The notes beneath the pieces are model-generated. The model was not told the DNA's origin and made no database searches. It worked only from the letters and a program-made list of their open reading frames with translations. From Natrialba hulunbeirensis JCM 10989 (lineage in GTDB: Archaea; Halobacteriota; Halobacteria; Halobacteriales; Natrialbaceae), in the NCBI RefSeq assembly GCF_000337575.1, contig NZ_AOIM01000013.1, positions 156,425 to 220,424 of the forward strand: a stretch of 64,000 nt of DNA. The letters are read 5' to 3'. The translations under genes were made by a program, and so were the position numbers. This document shows positions 33,537 to 39,852 of the stretch, piece after piece (the first letter of the stretch is position 1; the number at the start of each line of letters is the position of its first letter).

Positions 33537-34403
33537 TTAATCCTGGCCGTCGTGGCCAATCTCTGCGTTCTGACTGGGAACGGGATCAGCGTCCTGAGCG
33601 CCAGCCCCCGGCGGTTCGAATACCGTCGCCTCGACGTCGGTTGAAACACCGTAGGTCGCGTCCGCGACGGAGTCAGGAAGTGCGTACTCGTCTCCCTCGT
33701 AGTGGACGCGGAGCGACGATCGAACCGCCTCACGGACACAGGCCCGCGTCGCCGCGCCAACGCGAGTCGCGCTGCCGGTGAACTCGACGGAATCGCCTGC
33801 CGGATCGTGGCCGACGATCACCGCGTCGGTCGTAGTTCCCGGAAAACCGGTTTCGGCGAGTAGCGTCGCGGTCTTGGCCTCGACGGCGACCGCGAGGAGG
33901 TTCGCGAGCGCGCCGGACTCGAGTGCGCGTGTGGTTCCGACGATGACGTTGACGGTGCCGAGTTCGGACTCTGTGTCATCCGACTCGCCAGTCTGAGCGT
34001 CTGTGGGTGGCAGCGAACCATCCGCAGGGTCCATCGGAAGCGCGGCGGGGTTCGAGATACCGGCGGTCGCGTAGGCCGTGACGGGGCCGCAGTGTGCGCC
34101 GCGGGCGTCGACGATGTCGACGCCGGTGAGGAGGGCTGGTCCCGGCTGCCGCGCGTGAGAGTCCAACTTCCCATCACGGTTGATACTCGCTCCGTCTTGG
34201 TAGCCCGCTCGCTCGAGTCGCGACGAAACGTACGCGCCGAGTTCCTGACGTCCCCACTCCTCCGGCACCGAGATGTTGTACGCGGCCTCGGACTGCCAGC
34301 GGCCGCCGTTCCAGCCACTCGAGAGCCACTCGGTTCCGGACCGGGACACCCGCAGCACACCGTCGCGGCGAACAGCCTGATAGGCGGGGTCCTCGGCAGT
34401 CAT
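33537..34403 (-). CDS. cbiZ: Adenosylcobinamide amidohydrolase CbiZ
   Basis: 288 residues of the CbiZ family, which cleaves the aminopropanol side chain of adenosylcobinamide to adenosylcobyric acid, letting archaea salvage foreign corrinoids. Family features include SGWNGGRWQSEAAYNISV near the start, LLTGVDIVDARGA, TAYATAGISNPA, GTVNVIVGTTRALESGAL and TATLLAETGFPGTTTDAVIV. It contains a hydrophilic insert of about 25 residues with DGSLPPTDAQTGESDD. It overlaps the upstream cobD by one base. Confidence 0.92.
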   Translation of the reverse strand: MTAEDPAYQAVRRDGVLRVSRSGTEWLSSGWNGGRWQSEAAYNISVPEEWGRQELGAYVSSRLERAGYQDGASINRDGKLDSHARQPGPALLTGVDIVDARGAHCGPVTAYATAGISNPAALPMDPADGSLPPTDAQTGESDDTESELGTVNVIVGTTRALESGALANLLAVAVEAKTATLLAETGFPGTTTDAVIVGHDPAGDSVEFTGSATRVGAATRACVREAVRSSLRVHYEGDEYALPDSVADATYGVSTDVEATVFEPPGAGAQDADPVPSQNAEIGHDGQD

Positions 34404-35494
34404 CAGTCACCGCCACCTTCCGAGCCGTCCGGCCCGCCAGCACCGAGTGCCGCGAGCACTCGATCGTTCGTCTCCCGATCTTTGATCGCGATTCGGATGT
34501 GCGAGTCGAGCGCCCGGAACGTGCGGGCGTCGCGGATGGCCACGCCGCGTTCGCGTGCCGTCTCTATCACGTCGTCGACGCTGCGCTCGCCCACGTCACA
34601 CAGCAGATACGGCGCGTCCGATGGCACGACGTCGAACCCGAGTTCGGGTTCGGTCTCCACCCGCTCGCGAACTCGTGCGCGCTCCTCAGCGACCCGCTCG
34701 CGCGTCTCGCGGACGAACCCGTCCTGCCGGAGGCAGTGCGCACCGACGCGAGCGGCCGGCGTTCCGAGCGACCACGCGCGACGGGCCGACTCGAGTGCCC
34801 CCCGATTCTCGCCGAATCCGACGGCGAAGCCGGCGCGTAGACCTGGCAGGCCGAACAGTTTGGTGAGCGAGCGGGCGACGATAACGTGCTCGCGGCCGTG
34901 TGCGTAGTTGGACTCAAGTGCAGCGGCTGCCGCGGAGGGAAGATCGGTAAAGCCGAGAAACGCCTCGTCGACGAGCAGCGTCGTCCCCGCCTCAGCACAG
35001 CGGTCCGCGAAGGAGACGAGGTCGGCTGGCTCGACCGCATCACCCGTCGGATTGTTCGGCGTGCAGACGATTGCGAGCGAGGCGGACTCGAGTGCGGCCG
35101 TGCGCAGCGACAGCAGGTCGTCGTAGCGGACGAACTGCGGCGTCGCTCCCTGCAGGCGGACTTCGCGGGCGTACTCGCCGAAGCTTGGATAGGGGACGAG
35201 CGCCTCGTCATCGGGCTCGAGCGCGAGTTCCATCGCCAGTCGAATCGCGGCCAGCCCGCCGGGTGTCGGAATTACCTGCTCGGGTTCACAGCCCACGAAG
35301 TCGGCTGCCGCGGCCCGGAAGTCGGCGTACTCGTCGTCGGGATAGCGGCGGGACTTCTCGAGTGCACTGTGGTAGATCTCGTCGACGCCGTCGGGTGTGT
35401 TCGGGTTGGTGTTCGCCGAGGCGTCGGTGATGTCTGGGTTGGGCTCACCGCCGTGGGGGACGCGGCCGGTGGTGCGGATCGAGTCAGGGTCCAT
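34403..35494 (-). CDS. cobD: L-threonine-O-3-phosphate decarboxylase (aminotransferase fold)
   Basis: 363-residue PLP enzyme of aminotransferase class I/II fold that makes (R)-1-amino-2-propanol phosphate for the nucleotide loop of cobalamin. PLP-binding features are PTPGGLAAIRLAMELAL, VCTPNNPTGDAV, LLVDEAFLGFTDLP with the conserved Asp and ARSLTKLFGLPGLRAGFAVG with the lysine in SLTKLF. The start ATG at 35494 lies inside the end of cobT (11-bp overlap). The N-terminal linker has TDASANTNPNTPD. Histidinol-phosphate aminotransferase is a close relative, and context favours CobD. Confidence 0.88.
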   Translation of the reverse strand: MDPDSIRTTGRVPHGGEPNPDITDASANTNPNTPDGVDEIYHSALEKSRRYPDDEYADFRAAAADFVGCEPEQVIPTPGGLAAIRLAMELALEPDDEALVPYPSFGEYAREVRLQGATPQFVRYDDLLSLRTAALESASLAIVCTPNNPTGDAVEPADLVSFADRCAEAGTTLLVDEAFLGFTDLPSAAAAALESNYAHGREHVIVARSLTKLFGLPGLRAGFAVGFGENRGALESARRAWSLGTPAARVGAHCLRQDGFVRETRERVAEERARVRERVETEPELGFDVVPSDAPYLLCDVGERSVDDVIETARERGVAIRDARTFRALDSHIRIAIKDRETNDRVLAALGAGGPDGSEGGGD

Positions 35495-36596
35495 GGTCGG
35501 CTTCGGGTGCTGGTTCCGGTTCGGCGTTGGAAGGTGTGTCGGTGTCGGTGTCGGTGTTCGGGCCAGAACGTCCTGCAAGCCCGTCAGGCTCGATTCCGAG
35601 CCGCCGACAAACCGTCTCGAACTGATCTCTGACCGCGGCCATCTCGCCCTCGGGAACGAGCGAGAGCGCACCACCCATGCCGACACCCTCCTTCGCCTCA
35701 CCCGCACAGTAGCGATCCATCGCGACGTGTTGACGCTCGTGGTCGGCAAAGCCCGGATCGGTCACCGTCAGCTCGCAGTCGAGCCCAGCGCAGGCCGACT
35801 CGAGTTGCTCGCCCTGCTCGGCCGCGACGAACGAGGTCGTCGCAATCTCGAGCGGCGCGTCGACACCCGCGTGACGGAGGATCGCGGCCACAGCGATCAT
35901 CTGCGTCCCACCCGCGAGGGTAACGCTGGTAGCAGGGTTGGACTCGAGTACCCCCGCCGCGATGCCGGCGACGGTCGGCTGGACTGGGTCACCGACGGCC
36001 CGAATTGCGTCGAACGGCGCGGATTCGCAGTCGCCGGCGGCGAGCTCGCTCTCGTCGAGAGCCTCGTCGACGATGCGGCGCTTTCGCTCGACGGGGTTCT
36101 CCGGGAGCGACGAGGAGACGCTGGTCGGCTCGCCGAGCGCGGTGAGCACGCCGAGTGCGGTGGTCGTGCCGCCGGGAACCGTCTCGCCGATGACGATGTC
36201 ATCCTCGTCGTCGGGAAGGCTCGCCCCGTAGCCATGCGCGCGGTCGAAAATCGCCGCTGCGTCCGGAACGGCCGCGGGCTCGCGGATGTCGTTCCCCGGT
36301 TCGATACCAAGGTCGACCGTTGGAACGCTCGTCGGCTTGGCCAGCCCGGCGTCGACCACCGTCACGTCGAACCCGCACACTTCGCGGACGGCTCGCGTGA
36401 CCGCTGCCGGCGTCGGACAGCCGTTCGGACTGACCGGCGTCACCGGCGAGCGCGCTGGCGCGCCGAACTCGAGTATTTCGACGTCGGCGGAGGGAGTGTG
36501 GGCCATCAGTTCGGGAGCCGCGCCGGCGGCGCTGATGCCGTCGATGAGCGCGGTTTCGGTGGTTCCGGCGGGGAGGATGAGACGCGGACGAGTCAT
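35484..36596 (-). CDS. cobT: Archaeal CobT-like nicotinate-nucleotide phosphoribosyltransferase
   Basis: 370 residues of the archaeal CobT (UPF0284) group. It activates dimethylbenzimidazole or another base with nicotinate mononucleotide to the alpha-riboside for the lower ligand. Family motifs: LILPAGTTETALIDGISAAG, NGCPTPAAVTRAVRE, GNDIREPAAVPDAA, VIGETVPGGTTTALGVLTAL and SVTLAGGTQMIAVAAILRHA. The last 27 residues are a halophile-type low-complexity tail with NTDTDTDTPSNAEPEPAPEA, encoded by a GGTGTC hexamer run that overlaps cobD. It overlaps cobY by 4 bp. Confidence 0.9.
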   Translation of the reverse strand: MTRPRLILPAGTTETALIDGISAAGAAPELMAHTPSADVEILEFGAPARSPVTPVSPNGCPTPAAVTRAVREVCGFDVTVVDAGLAKPTSVPTVDLGIEPGNDIREPAAVPDAAAIFDRAHGYGASLPDDEDDIVIGETVPGGTTTALGVLTALGEPTSVSSSLPENPVERKRRIVDEALDESELAAGDCESAPFDAIRAVGDPVQPTVAGIAAGVLESNPATSVTLAGGTQMIAVAAILRHAGVDAPLEIATTSFVAAEQGEQLESACAGLDCELTVTDPGFADHERQHVAMDRYCAGEAKEGVGMGGALSLVPEGEMAAVRDQFETVCRRLGIEPDGLAGRSGPNTDTDTDTPSNAEPEPAPEADHGP

Positions 36597-37321
36597 CGTT
36601 TGTCACCGTGTCTGTCGTCCGTTTCTTGCGTTTCTTGCGTTTCTCGCATTGCTCGCGTTTCCGGATCCCGGATGTACGCGGCAGCGATGCGAGCGTCTTC
36701 GCGTCGGTTCACGTTGACCGCGAGTCGTGGGTCGTCGGTTACGTAGGTCATGGATGGTTGGGTGTCGTCTGTGGTGTCTTGGTCGGGAGTGTCATCGACG
36801 GTCGTCTCGCCGACGACGTTGATGCCGGTCGGGACAAGAGCGGTACCGTCGGGAGCAGTGGCAGCGTCATCACCCGTCTGCCCGAGCCGTGAATCGACGC
36901 TGACGCCACAGTCGCGCTTTCGAGACTCGGGGACGCAAACAGTCATCGATCCGGCGCCACCGCGCTCGTCGTACGCCGCGAGCACCCGGTCGACGACGGC
37001 CGCGGAGAGCAACGGGAGATCCGCTGCGACTGTGAGTAGTGGCTGGGAAATCTCCGGCCGGTCGAGCGCGGCCAGCAGGTCCGCGACGTACCCCTCGCCC
37101 GCCGTCTCGACGAGACGAACGTCTCGGTCGGCTTCGGAAAGGTGTGCGTGCGTCTCCGGCGCATTGGGGGAGACTGCGGCGTAGATCGTCTCGACCTGAC
37201 TGGACTCGAGTGCATCCACGACGCGGTCGACCATCGGAACTCCCGCGATGGGATGAAGCGGCTTTTCGTGGTCGCTCTCGAGTCGGGTGCCCGTCCCGCC
37301 GCACATCACAAGAGCGTCCAC
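36593..37321 (-). CDS. cobY: GTP:adenosylcobinamide-phosphate guanylyltransferase CobY
   Basis: 242-residue nucleotidyltransferase of the archaeal CobY type, which replaces the bacterial CobU for GDP activation of cobinamide phosphate. The nucleotide-binding motif MDALVMCGGTGTRLES opens the protein, followed by KPLHPIAGVPMVDRVVDAL and the catalytic LLTVAADLPLLSAAVVDRVL. A middle insert has TTVDDTPDQDTTDDTQ and the tail has a short ETQETQET repeat. It overlaps cobT by 4 bp and cobS by 16 bp. Confidence 0.88.
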   Translation of the reverse strand: MDALVMCGGTGTRLESDHEKPLHPIAGVPMVDRVVDALESSQVETIYAAVSPNAPETHAHLSEADRDVRLVETAGEGYVADLLAALDRPEISQPLLTVAADLPLLSAAVVDRVLAAYDERGGAGSMTVCVPESRKRDCGVSVDSRLGQTGDDAATAPDGTALVPTGINVVGETTVDDTPDQDTTDDTQPSMTYVTDDPRLAVNVNRREDARIAAAYIRDPETRAMRETQETQETDDRHGDKR

Positions 37322-38067
37322 GCGATCACCCCCGCGTGCAGCCCCGCGACGCGGCCGAGTTCGTTCGCCGCGCCGAAGATATCGCCGTTGATGCCGCCGA
37401 GGTGGCGAGTCGCCCAGTACCAGGGAAGACAGACGCCGGCGACGCCGCCAGCGATGGCGAGTGCAGCTGGGCGCGGCCAGGCGAGCGCTGCCGCCGAGAG
37501 GACGAGCGCTGCCGGGACGAGCCAGCCACCAGGCGTCGACGCCTCGGTGAACTGCCGACCCATGCCCTCATACGGTGCACGACCGAAGCAAGCCATCGTC
37601 GCCATGCCGAGTTTCGAACCGACTTCAGCTCCGATGGCGACCGTAACGGCCGTTAGCGCTGGAAGTGCGGCGAGGCCAAGCCCGCCGAGTGCGAGGCCCG
37701 AGATTGTAATTGCGACCGCGAGGATCGCGCCGACTCCGGTCGTCGTGTCTTTCAGGACTTCGCGCCGGCGGTCGGCGTCGCCGTGGACCACGAGCGCGTC
37801 GCCGAGGTCGGCGACGCCGTCGAGGTGGTGAATCCCGGTCACCGCGTAGACGGCGAGCAGGTAGCCGAAGGCGACGACCGGCGGCGTGAGAGTATCAGCC
37901 GCGAGCAGCGGCACTGCGGCGAGTGTGCCTGCGACGAGCCCGACGAGCGGGAACGCGGCCGGCGTGGATCGGAACGCGTCCCAGTCGCCGTCGTAGTGGT
38001 TAACGGGCAGTCGCGTCAGGAACCCGAGCGCGCCGCGGGTCGCGCGAAGCCAGCGTCTTACGGCCAC
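37306..38067 (-). CDS. cobS: Adenosylcobinamide-GDP ribazoletransferase CobS
   Basis: 253-residue integral membrane cobalamin synthase joining adenosylcobinamide-GDP and alpha-ribazole. The conserved N-terminal FLTRLPVNHYDGDWDAFR and acidic metal motif IHHLDGVADLGDAL are clear, along with RREVLKDTTTGVGAILAVA. About six membrane helices include LAALPALTAVTVAIGAE and LVPAALVLSAAALAW. It overlaps cbiB by 10 bp and cobY by 16 bp, so the operon is tightly coupled. Confidence 0.93.
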   Translation of the reverse strand: MAVRRWLRATRGALGFLTRLPVNHYDGDWDAFRSTPAAFPLVGLVAGTLAAVPLLAADTLTPPVVAFGYLLAVYAVTGIHHLDGVADLGDALVVHGDADRRREVLKDTTTGVGAILAVAITISGLALGGLGLAALPALTAVTVAIGAEVGSKLGMATMACFGRAPYEGMGRQFTEASTPGGWLVPAALVLSAAALAWPRPAALAIAGGVAGVCLPWYWATRHLGGINGDIFGAANELGRVAGLHAGVIAWTLL

Positions 38068-39083
38068 TGGGCCACCTCCGCGAGAGCCGGCTGTGGCTGC
38101 AGTAGGGGGCTTTCAGCGATCGGCGGTCCGTCCACAATGCCGAACTGGGCTGCGAGAACGGCCACCCCCGTCGCGAGCGCCAGCGCAAGCACAGCCGAGA
38201 CGACGGCAGCCACGCGGATCACACTCGTCGCGCGCTCGCTGTCCTCGAGTGCCGGCAATTCTGCATCGGGATTGAGATCGTACACGTCCCGTTTGCGGAG
38301 GCGAACCGAGAGCGCGCACGCGAGCGTCGCCATCGGCCACCCCGAGTTCGGCGACGGCGGCGTCCGAGCCCACGCGGCCGCGTGCCGGAGCGCGAGCGGC
38401 GCGCCCGCCCCAAGTGCGATCGACACCGCCGAGAGACGGGCGGGAACCCACATTACGAAATCGTCGAGCCGCGCGCTCGCGGTTCCGTGTGGCTTTGACG
38501 GGTAGCCGAGCATCGAATCGAGCGTGTTGACGCCCTTGACCCACGCCGCAGCCGCGGCGGCAGCGGGCAGCGAAAACGGGGCGAGCAGCGCGAACGGCAA
38601 GAGCGTCGCGACGAGACCGTCCGCGAGGTTCTCCGCTGCGCTCTCGAGTGCCCCACTGCGGAGTTCGGCCGGCGAAAGCGAGGCTGTGTCCCGGCCAATG
38701 AGACCGCGTACGCGGTCGCGAGCCGTCTCGAGCTCCGCCGCGGAACCGGCTGTCGCGCGCACAACTTCGTCGGTCAACTCGAGTAGCGACCGCAGGCTGA
38801 TCGTCAACCAGAGAACGAGGGCGGCAGCCCCGATGCCGGCGAGCGCCGAGAGGGCGGTGGCAGCGAGGACGAACCCGGCGGCCGCGGCGGCGGGGACGAG
38901 CGGGACGGCGAGCGCGATTGGGACGCCCGCGAGGCGCTGAAAGTGCTCGTGCTCGCTCCACTCGCGGTCGAGCGGCGCGATGAGTCGGCCGAGCCAGGCG
39001 ACAGGATGGAACGCATTTCGCGGCTCGCCAGCGACGTGATCGAGGCCGAGGGCGACGGCGAGGAGGATAGCCGTGGTCACCAC
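38058..39083 (-). CDS. cbiB: Adenosylcobinamide-phosphate synthase CbiB
   Basis: 341-residue membrane enzyme linking adenosylcobyric acid to aminopropanol phosphate. Family motifs are LDHVAGEPRNAFHPVAWLG near the N-terminus, ESAAENLADGLVATLLPFA, WVKGVNTLDSMLGYP and LDDFVMWVPARLSAVSIAL. I start it at GTG 39083 (VVTTAILLAVALGLD), which fits the family's N-terminus. An ATG at 39167 would overlap the upstream HAD gene by 41 bp and add a charged lead lacking family similarity. It overlaps cobS by 10 bp. Confidence 0.9.
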   Translation of the reverse strand: MVTTAILLAVALGLDHVAGEPRNAFHPVAWLGRLIAPLDREWSEHEHFQRLAGVPIALAVPLVPAAAAAGFVLAATALSALAGIGAAALVLWLTISLRSLLELTDEVVRATAGSAAELETARDRVRGLIGRDTASLSPAELRSGALESAAENLADGLVATLLPFALLAPFSLPAAAAAAAWVKGVNTLDSMLGYPSKPHGTASARLDDFVMWVPARLSAVSIALGAGAPLALRHAAAWARTPPSPNSGWPMATLACALSVRLRKRDVYDLNPDAELPALEDSERATSVIRVAAVVSAVLALALATGVAVLAAQFGIVDGPPIAESPLLQPQPALAEVAQWP

Positions 39084-39126
39084 GAGTCTGCCCTCGCGCG
39101 TTCGAAGTCGGATAGAACAGTTCTCA

Positions 39127-39852
39127 TCACGGTCGGTCACCTCCGGGCTCGATCTCACCGAGTTCATCGAGTGCGTCGGGGAGTTTGGCGAGGGACTCGA
39201 GTACGCGTGTCTCTCCCGACACACTACTGGTACCCTCGGCTGTCGCACCGGGTTCGGCTGTCATACATCCGTTGGTGAGCAAGAGCGCGGTTCCCCCGAC
39301 GGACGTGATGCCGCCGTCAGTTCGCGGGTCGTCGCCGACGTGGACGAGGTCTGTGGAGGAAACGCCGAGTTGGGCCGCGGTTTGCTCGAAGATTTCGGAT
39401 GCGGGTTTCCGCCAGCCGCAGCCGACGCTCGTGACGATTGCACCGAAATCATCGCGTGAGAGGGCAGATCGGACGAGCGTCCGTCCGACGAGTTCGGGAA
39501 CACTGCAGTTCGAGCAGAGCGCAACTGCGTGGCCGCGGTCGCGAGCAGCGTCGATCGCCGCCCGTGCGCCCGATCTGGTTTCGACGGCGGGATCGAACGC
39601 GGCGACGACTGCTCGCCTGGCTGTGTTCCCCTGAACTGTAACACCGCGACTCGCGAGCGCGCGCGAGACATGTGCGGGGAGGGGAACTTCTGCGCCGTTG
39701 GGAGCGTCGACGTGGATCTCCGTGTACGCGTCCGCCCAGTCGTCGGGAACCGAGACACCGCGTTCAGCGAGTTCGGTTCCGACGGCTGCGGCGGGGTCGG
39801 CCGGGTAGTCGGCGGTAACGAGCGTATCGAAGAGGTCGAACGAGACTCCCAC
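39127..39852 (-). CDS. HAD-family hydrolase heading the cobalamin operon
   Basis: 241-residue HAD phosphatase-like protein. Motif I is SFDLFDTLVTADYP, motif II is VALCSNCSVPELV, motif III with lysine is GCGWRKPASEIFEQ, and motif IV is LVHVGDDPRTDGG. A cap segment lies between motifs I and II. It is the first gene of the operon, 43 bp before cbiB. Operon position suggests a cobalamin-related phosphatase, for example removal of the phosphate of adenosylcobalamin 5'-phosphate, for which no CobC or CobZ homologue is visible here. That assignment is inference. Confidence 0.85.
   Translation of the reverse strand: MGVSFDLFDTLVTADYPADPAAAVGTELAERGVSVPDDWADAYTEIHVDAPNGAEVPLPAHVSRALASRGVTVQGNTARRAVVAAFDPAVETRSGARAAIDAARDRGHAVALCSNCSVPELVGRTLVRSALSRDDFGAIVTSVGCGWRKPASEIFEQTAAQLGVSSTDLVHVGDDPRTDGGITSVGGTALLLTNGCMTAEPGATAEGTSSVSGETRVLESLAKLPDALDELGEIEPGGDRP

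Follow-up and report, generated by a model that had tools for sequence, protein, structure and literature searches.

Our results support a model in which the HAD-family hydrolase encoded at the head of a cobamide (cob) operon in Natrialba hulunbeirensis JCM 10989 would be the phosphatase for adenosylcobalamin-5'-phosphate (AdoCbl-5'-P). This is the best single reading of the evidence, and we put its probability at roughly 55%. The HAD protein would remove the 5'-phosphate from AdoCbl-5'-P, the product of CobS, or from alpha-ribazole-5'-phosphate, with substrate and direction as we infer them, and would take the place of CobC or CobZ at the final dephosphorylation in haloarchaeal nucleotide-loop assembly. 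Cobalamin is made by haloarchaea, but their enzyme for this last step has so far been listed only as a prediction awaiting proof. The original prediction for this DNA, that the HAD protein is the missing phosphatase, is favored by the absence of CobC and CobZ, tight linkage to cob genes, co-loss with CobS and retention in trans, whereas a phenylalanine in motif I (Phe8), CobS genomes without a live copy and cob-less genomes with one count against it.

The HAD gene and its operon

The HAD ORF lies at 39127-39852 on the minus strand of the window (the whole 64,000-nucleotide stretch of DNA that was analyzed), has a GTG start and encodes 241 aa; its nearest named relative is from N. chahannaoensis (83%). 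The minus-strand order is DUF5789, eIF2-beta, HAD, CbiB, CobS, CobY, CobT, CobD and CbiZ, with a gap of 228 bases between eIF2-beta and HAD. The cob cluster thus begins with the HAD gene, which stands directly before CbiB, in agreement with its earlier description as the operon head. The features are as follows.

39127..39852, minus strand: HAD-family hydrolase, candidate AdoCbl-5'-phosphate phosphatase (PF00702 match and place before cbiB)
38058..39083 (start set to in-frame GTG), minus strand: CbiB, adenosylcobinamide-phosphate synthase (PF03186, 1.3e-68)
37306..38067, minus strand: CobS, adenosylcobinamide-GDP ribazoletransferase (TIGR00317, 1.8e-39)
36593..37321, minus strand: CobY, adenosylcobinamide-phosphate guanylyltransferase (TIGR00454 and NF045495, both below cut-off)
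35484..36596, minus strand: CobT-like nicotinate mononucleotide-dependent phosphoribosyltransferase (TIGR00303, 2.7e-74, over cut-off)
34403..35749, minus strand: CobD, threonine-phosphate decarboxylase (TIGR01140, 1.5e-81; 274.1 bits against a cut-off of 290.55, just under)
33537..34403, minus strand: CbiZ, adenosylcobinamide amidohydrolase (PF01955, 1e-38)

Pfam and NCBIfam matches bear out the claim that the operon supplies CbiB, CobS, CobY, CobT, CobD and CbiZ, with the CobY and CobD models scoring below cut-off. The true start of CobD is probably further in than in the ORF listed. The longest CbiB ORF (38058-39248) overlaps HAD by 122 bases; because Pfam matches it only from residue 63 onward and in-frame GTG codons occur at 39083 and 39080, CbiB probably starts at one of these codons and the two genes probably do not overlap. 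The domain matches of the window's CbiZ include no fused phosphatase domain, and we saw no threonine kinase (EC 2.7.1.177) in the stretch of cob genes at 33537-39852.

The original prediction also held that a recognizable CobC or CobZ is missing, and a genome-wide profile search confirms this. CobC, which we take to have the histidine phosphatase fold (PF00300), and CobZ of Methanosarcina, presumably of the PgpA fold (PF04608), each gave no match in the window's own genome (98.8% complete; 0 of 1 for both families), so that no homologue of either was found elsewhere in it. The HAD protein itself matches neither PF00300 nor PF04608.

A phosphatase role for this HAD protein is already in print as a known but unproven prediction. 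In PMC8305020 (2021), HVO_0586 of Haloferax volcanii is entered as a predicted EC 3.1.3.73 enzyme with reference to Rodionov et al. 2003 and with the remark "prediction for HSL01294 (VNG_1577C)"; HSL01294 is VNG_1577C of Halobacterium. The same paper reports that haloarchaea lack a CobC homologue, names the threonine kinase EC 2.7.1.177 as the remaining pathway gap for the haloarchaeal branch, and orders the H. volcanii genes as HVO_0586, HVO_0587 (cbiB), HVO_0588 (cobS), HVO_0589 (cobY), HVO_0590 (cobT), HVO_0591 (cobD1) and HVO_0592 (cbiZ). The place of HVO_0586 as given there, directly before cbiB-cobS-cobY-cobT-cobD-cbiZ, is that of the window's HAD gene, and three g27 loci (L077-L079) match the order as well. 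The window thus has the feature that marks the HVO_0586/VNG_1577C group, a HAD gene directly before cbiB, and its HAD protein is likely an orthologue of that group, by position and family rather than by sequence alignment. We found no experiment on any member of the group in the literature covered, which excludes most subscription papers and in which the locus tags appear only in PMC8305020.

A HAD active site without the second aspartate

The HAD protein had been judged to be of the right class for the final dephosphorylation, and the class assignment stands: it matches PF00702 over the cut-off (E 1.7e-9; 38.8 bits against 26.4), and the residues of motifs I-IV (D6, S114, K149 and D174) are all present in the window copy and in 93/93 live copies. 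What does not fit is motif I, which reads D-L-F and not D-x-D. The copies were read from 96 of the 174 genomes with HAD, a few being partial and some picked for being unlinked; seven rows (L012, L115, L125, L131, L132, L133 and L134), which are partial copies or remote homologues, were left out of the live/dead residue counts. The full catalytic set is found in 73/73 CbiB-linked copies covered (74 including one cut short). The codons of the motif residues are as follows.

39835..39837, minus strand: Asp6 codon, motif I nucleophile (D-L-F-D-T-L)
39829..39831, minus strand: Phe8 codon, where HAD phosphatases have the general acid/base Asp
39511..39513, minus strand: Ser114 codon, motif II
39406..39408, minus strand: Lys149 codon, motif III
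39331..39333, minus strand: Asp174 codon, motif IV

In the proposed chemistry, Asp6 would act as the nucleophile, Ser114 and Lys149 would hold the phosphate and Asp174 would sit on the metal. Across copies motif I is D-[L/C]-F-[G/D/E]-T-L, and the i+2 position, Phe8 in the window, is Phe in every copy covered (90/90, and 93/93 live copies in a second count), so that the second Asp of the D-x-D motif of HAD phosphatases is absent. One remote homologue outside the family studied (L133, from G039) has D-L-D. HAD enzymes that dephosphorylate without the second Asp exist (YihX), and dehalogenases have D-x-F/Y in motif I. PMC12715507 assigns the role of general acid-base in HAD phosphatases to the second Asp. 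With a primary alkyl phosphate as the substrate, D-x-F must be taken as a genuine objection. The leaving group would have to be protonated by a group other than the usual i+2 Asp, perhaps the invariant cap residue His61, which is kept in 93/93 live and 8/8 dead copies and is among the conserved residues of the cap region, which include D38, W39, Y43, L58 and H61. An AlphaFold2 model built from 13 close sequences is of low confidence (mean pLDDT 46.4).

By sequence profile, the closest solved relatives are PH0459, HDHD3 and haloacid dehalogenases, none of which is listed as a cobamide phosphatase. The nearest, PH0459 (PDB 1x42; E 5.2e-8, with a significant match over residues 132-192 only), has no annotation beyond hypothetical protein, and its motif I (F-D-F-V-G-T-L) lacks the second Asp as the HAD protein does. 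The (S)-2-haloacid dehalogenase IVA (2no4) matches the HAD protein at a profile E of 0.001, and no dehalogenase model is among the HAD protein's family-model matches.

Distribution, linkage and exceptions

Among 194 haloarchaeal genomes, HAD is found in 174, CbiB in 175, CobS in 174 and PF00300 in 80; PF04608 is found in 2, of which 1 is over the cut-off. HAD and CobS occur together in 164 genomes, with 10 having HAD only, 10 CobS only and 10 neither (raw Fisher p 1.2e-6, relatedness ignored). Nine genera account for the ten genomes that have neither, and other members of three of these genera (g3, g29 and g46) keep both; HAD and CobS have been lost together in several genera. The family was found in haloarchaea only, with 0/124 genomes from elsewhere in the phylum having it. 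Of the 124 genomes with both places among the matches listed, 108 have the starts of HAD and CbiB no more than 2 kb apart, a count that leaves lower-scoring genomes outside it; the 16 with HAD away from CbiB, among the same matches, comprise twelve of g22, three of g43 and G026. HAD also adjoins CbiB in 10/12 tblastn loci. Given both counts, this gene order is not due to chance. A Fisher test on linkage gave p 2.6e-6, relatedness ignored.

The sole PF04608 match over the cut-off in the 194 haloarchaea lies at G092:C32:12183-12641, in a genome that also has a linked HAD.

Ten CobS genomes have no HAD (G001, G002, G007, G044, G050, G073, G089, G140, G145 and G157). A profile search of these genomes for a hidden distant HAD gave a best match with an E of 1.6e-7 and none of this family. 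All ten have CbiZ, and four have a PF00300 protein elsewhere. In nine of the ten cob operons (all but that of G002), read with neighbors partly typed, no other phosphatase gene was recognized; nor was a replacement phosphatase found in HAD's slot, which in six is filled before cbiB by Peripla_BP_2 (one typed by Pfam, the rest by clustering). Other clusters near these operons, typed from representatives by Pfam, are FecCD, ABC_tran, CbiA/GATase_3, BtuR and DUF7530. Together with G026, G173 and G124, in which the only copy is dead, at least 13 of the 174 CobS genomes manage without a live HAD. These genomes would also suit a protein whose substrate is some different phosphate or ester of cobamide metabolism, such as a salvage or damage product, with an unspecific phosphatase performing the last step, and a D-x-F motif I, atypical for alkyl phosphate hydrolysis, points the same way. 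We nonetheless regard this as unlikely: no other gap beside CobS suits a hydrolase, and the remaining gap listed in PMC8305020 is the EC 2.7.1.177 threonine kinase.

Conversely, six genomes of four genera (G074, G090, G121, G142, G156 and G159) have a live HAD without CbiB, CobS, CbiZ or CobT. Two further genomes were left out of this count because the missing CobS may be an assembly gap: G183 (93% complete), which has CbiZ and CobT, the latter near a contig start, and G186 (95% complete), in which HAD is split over contig ends and CbiZ is a fragment. Within the six, G121 keeps CobD beside a HAD with R148C and D175T changes, and the HAD of the Halomarina pair G156/G159 is under constraint (dN/dS 0.19). 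Such live copies and this constraint would be accounted for if the HAD protein were a general metabolite hydrolase of haloarchaea that lies in the cob operon only incidentally, but this reading sits poorly with the tight HAD-CbiB linkage (108/124 listed), the co-losses with CobS, the finding that no linked copy covered has lost a catalytic residue and the retention in trans in g22, and we consider it quite improbable. Given the CobS genomes without a live copy and the cob-less genomes with one, HAD is not a strict requirement for making cobamides, nor is it found strictly in organisms that make them. Taken with the D-x-F motif, these counter-cases weaken the published prediction.

Two cob-less neighborhoods have features of their own. 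In G142, which has no PF02654 or PF03186 match in its genome, a CobS-like membrane ORF (L054:4838-5629, minus strand; 33% to the window's CobS) lies beside the live HAD and lacks the H-L-D-G-V-A-D-L-G-D-A stretch; judging from its sequence, it is possibly a retained dead CobS. In cob-less g37, the live HAD adjoins a CaiB-type CoA transferase-like protein, identified by eye (L127:1435-2130, minus strand; L128:1324-2115, plus strand), and a change of function of this HAD is possible.

Apparent operon replacements, dead copies and known phosphatases

Support for the AdoCbl-5'-P phosphatase reading also comes from two groups in which the cob operon appears to have been replaced. An M24 peptidase lies beside HAD in twelve linked loci among L068-L107, and this peptidase is also found next to the orphan HADs of g43, G026, G173, G124, G142 and G183, which places these orphans at a former cob-operon site. 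In g22, one locus (L071) has the order c19-HAD-cob genes-MBL, and five other members have c19-HAD-MBL only. The relocated g22 operon that was read (G065, L104) has no HAD, and D6, S114, K149 and D174 are intact in 5/5 old-site copies read. It thus appears that a HAD-less cob operon replaced the native one in g22 and that the old-site HAD was kept alive in trans, as expected if the new operon still needs HAD. The picture differs in g43: a live HAD is part of the relocated operon that was read (G088, L103), and D6, S114 and D174 are gone from the copies left at the old site in G088, G139, G146, G063 and G109. One relocated operon was read per group, with generality within each group being inferred. 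The contrast between g22 and g43 strengthens the published prediction; G026, G173 and G124, which have CobS and in which only a dead HAD copy was found, are at odds with the replacement pattern.

Eight dead orphan copies (L052, L063-L067, L097 and L112), all at former cob sites, have lost D6, S114 and D174. Of 32 catalytic alignment cells they keep 6. At the remaining positions that are conserved among live copies, 399 of 432 cells are kept, and the cap region (15-80) retains 137 of 144. With two live orphans, the eight form one clade (SH-aLRT 91), and the tree requires at least two live-to-dead changes and at least six linkage changes, which are few events for an independent-pairs test of orphan versus dead status. 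Eight pairs drawn from the five g43 dead copies have a pairwise dN/dS (NG86) of 0.18-0.36, and ten live linked pairs one of 0.09-0.43; the former values speak against decaying pseudogenes, and the dead copies look like retained pseudoenzymes. In G042, a genome without cob genes, the HAD ORF (L131, L134) is 141 aa long with an internal alignment gap, and this HAD, unlike the eight dead copies, is probably decaying.

In bacteria, CobS recruits CobC, and CobC relieves CobS toxicity, as described in PMC8749415. The HAD protein might likewise be mainly a non-catalytic binding or scaffold partner of a CobS/CbiB membrane complex, with catalysis secondary, and the association of bacterial CobC with CobS, the dN/dS of the dead-copy pairs tested and the preservation of the cap and other conserved positions after loss of the catalytic ones would all fit. 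The full catalytic set in 73/73 linked copies covered and the dead copy kept in G109 without CobS argue against such a role, which we hold to be very improbable. For the dead copies, a binding role is speculation. A broader view, doubtful as it stands, is that the family comprises cobamide phosphatases without a canonical general acid/base that have given rise, at former cob sites, to pseudophosphatases held by selection, which have kept the substrate-binding cap and dropped the catalytic residues and are perhaps corrinoid-phosphate binders. The two apparent replacements, with HAD alive in g22 and dead in g43, and the conserved dead copies are ready-made test material.

In summary, the reading of the HAD protein as an AdoCbl-5'-P phosphatase can be set against three known phosphatases. 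A haloarchaeal member of the HAD family is the RuBP 5-phosphatase (NF053830), a proven phosphatase according to PMC9700705; the HAD protein scores 32.5 bits against its cut-off of 330 and is not a member. Bacterial CobC performs the last step by the reaction proposed here for the HAD protein, but belongs to a different protein family. CobZ of Methanosarcina, given in a review as the archaeal stand-in for CobC at EC 3.1.3.73, is likewise of an unrelated family. If the reading is true, the HAD protein would be a third unrelated solution to the last step beside CobC and CobZ, with a non-standard HAD active site.
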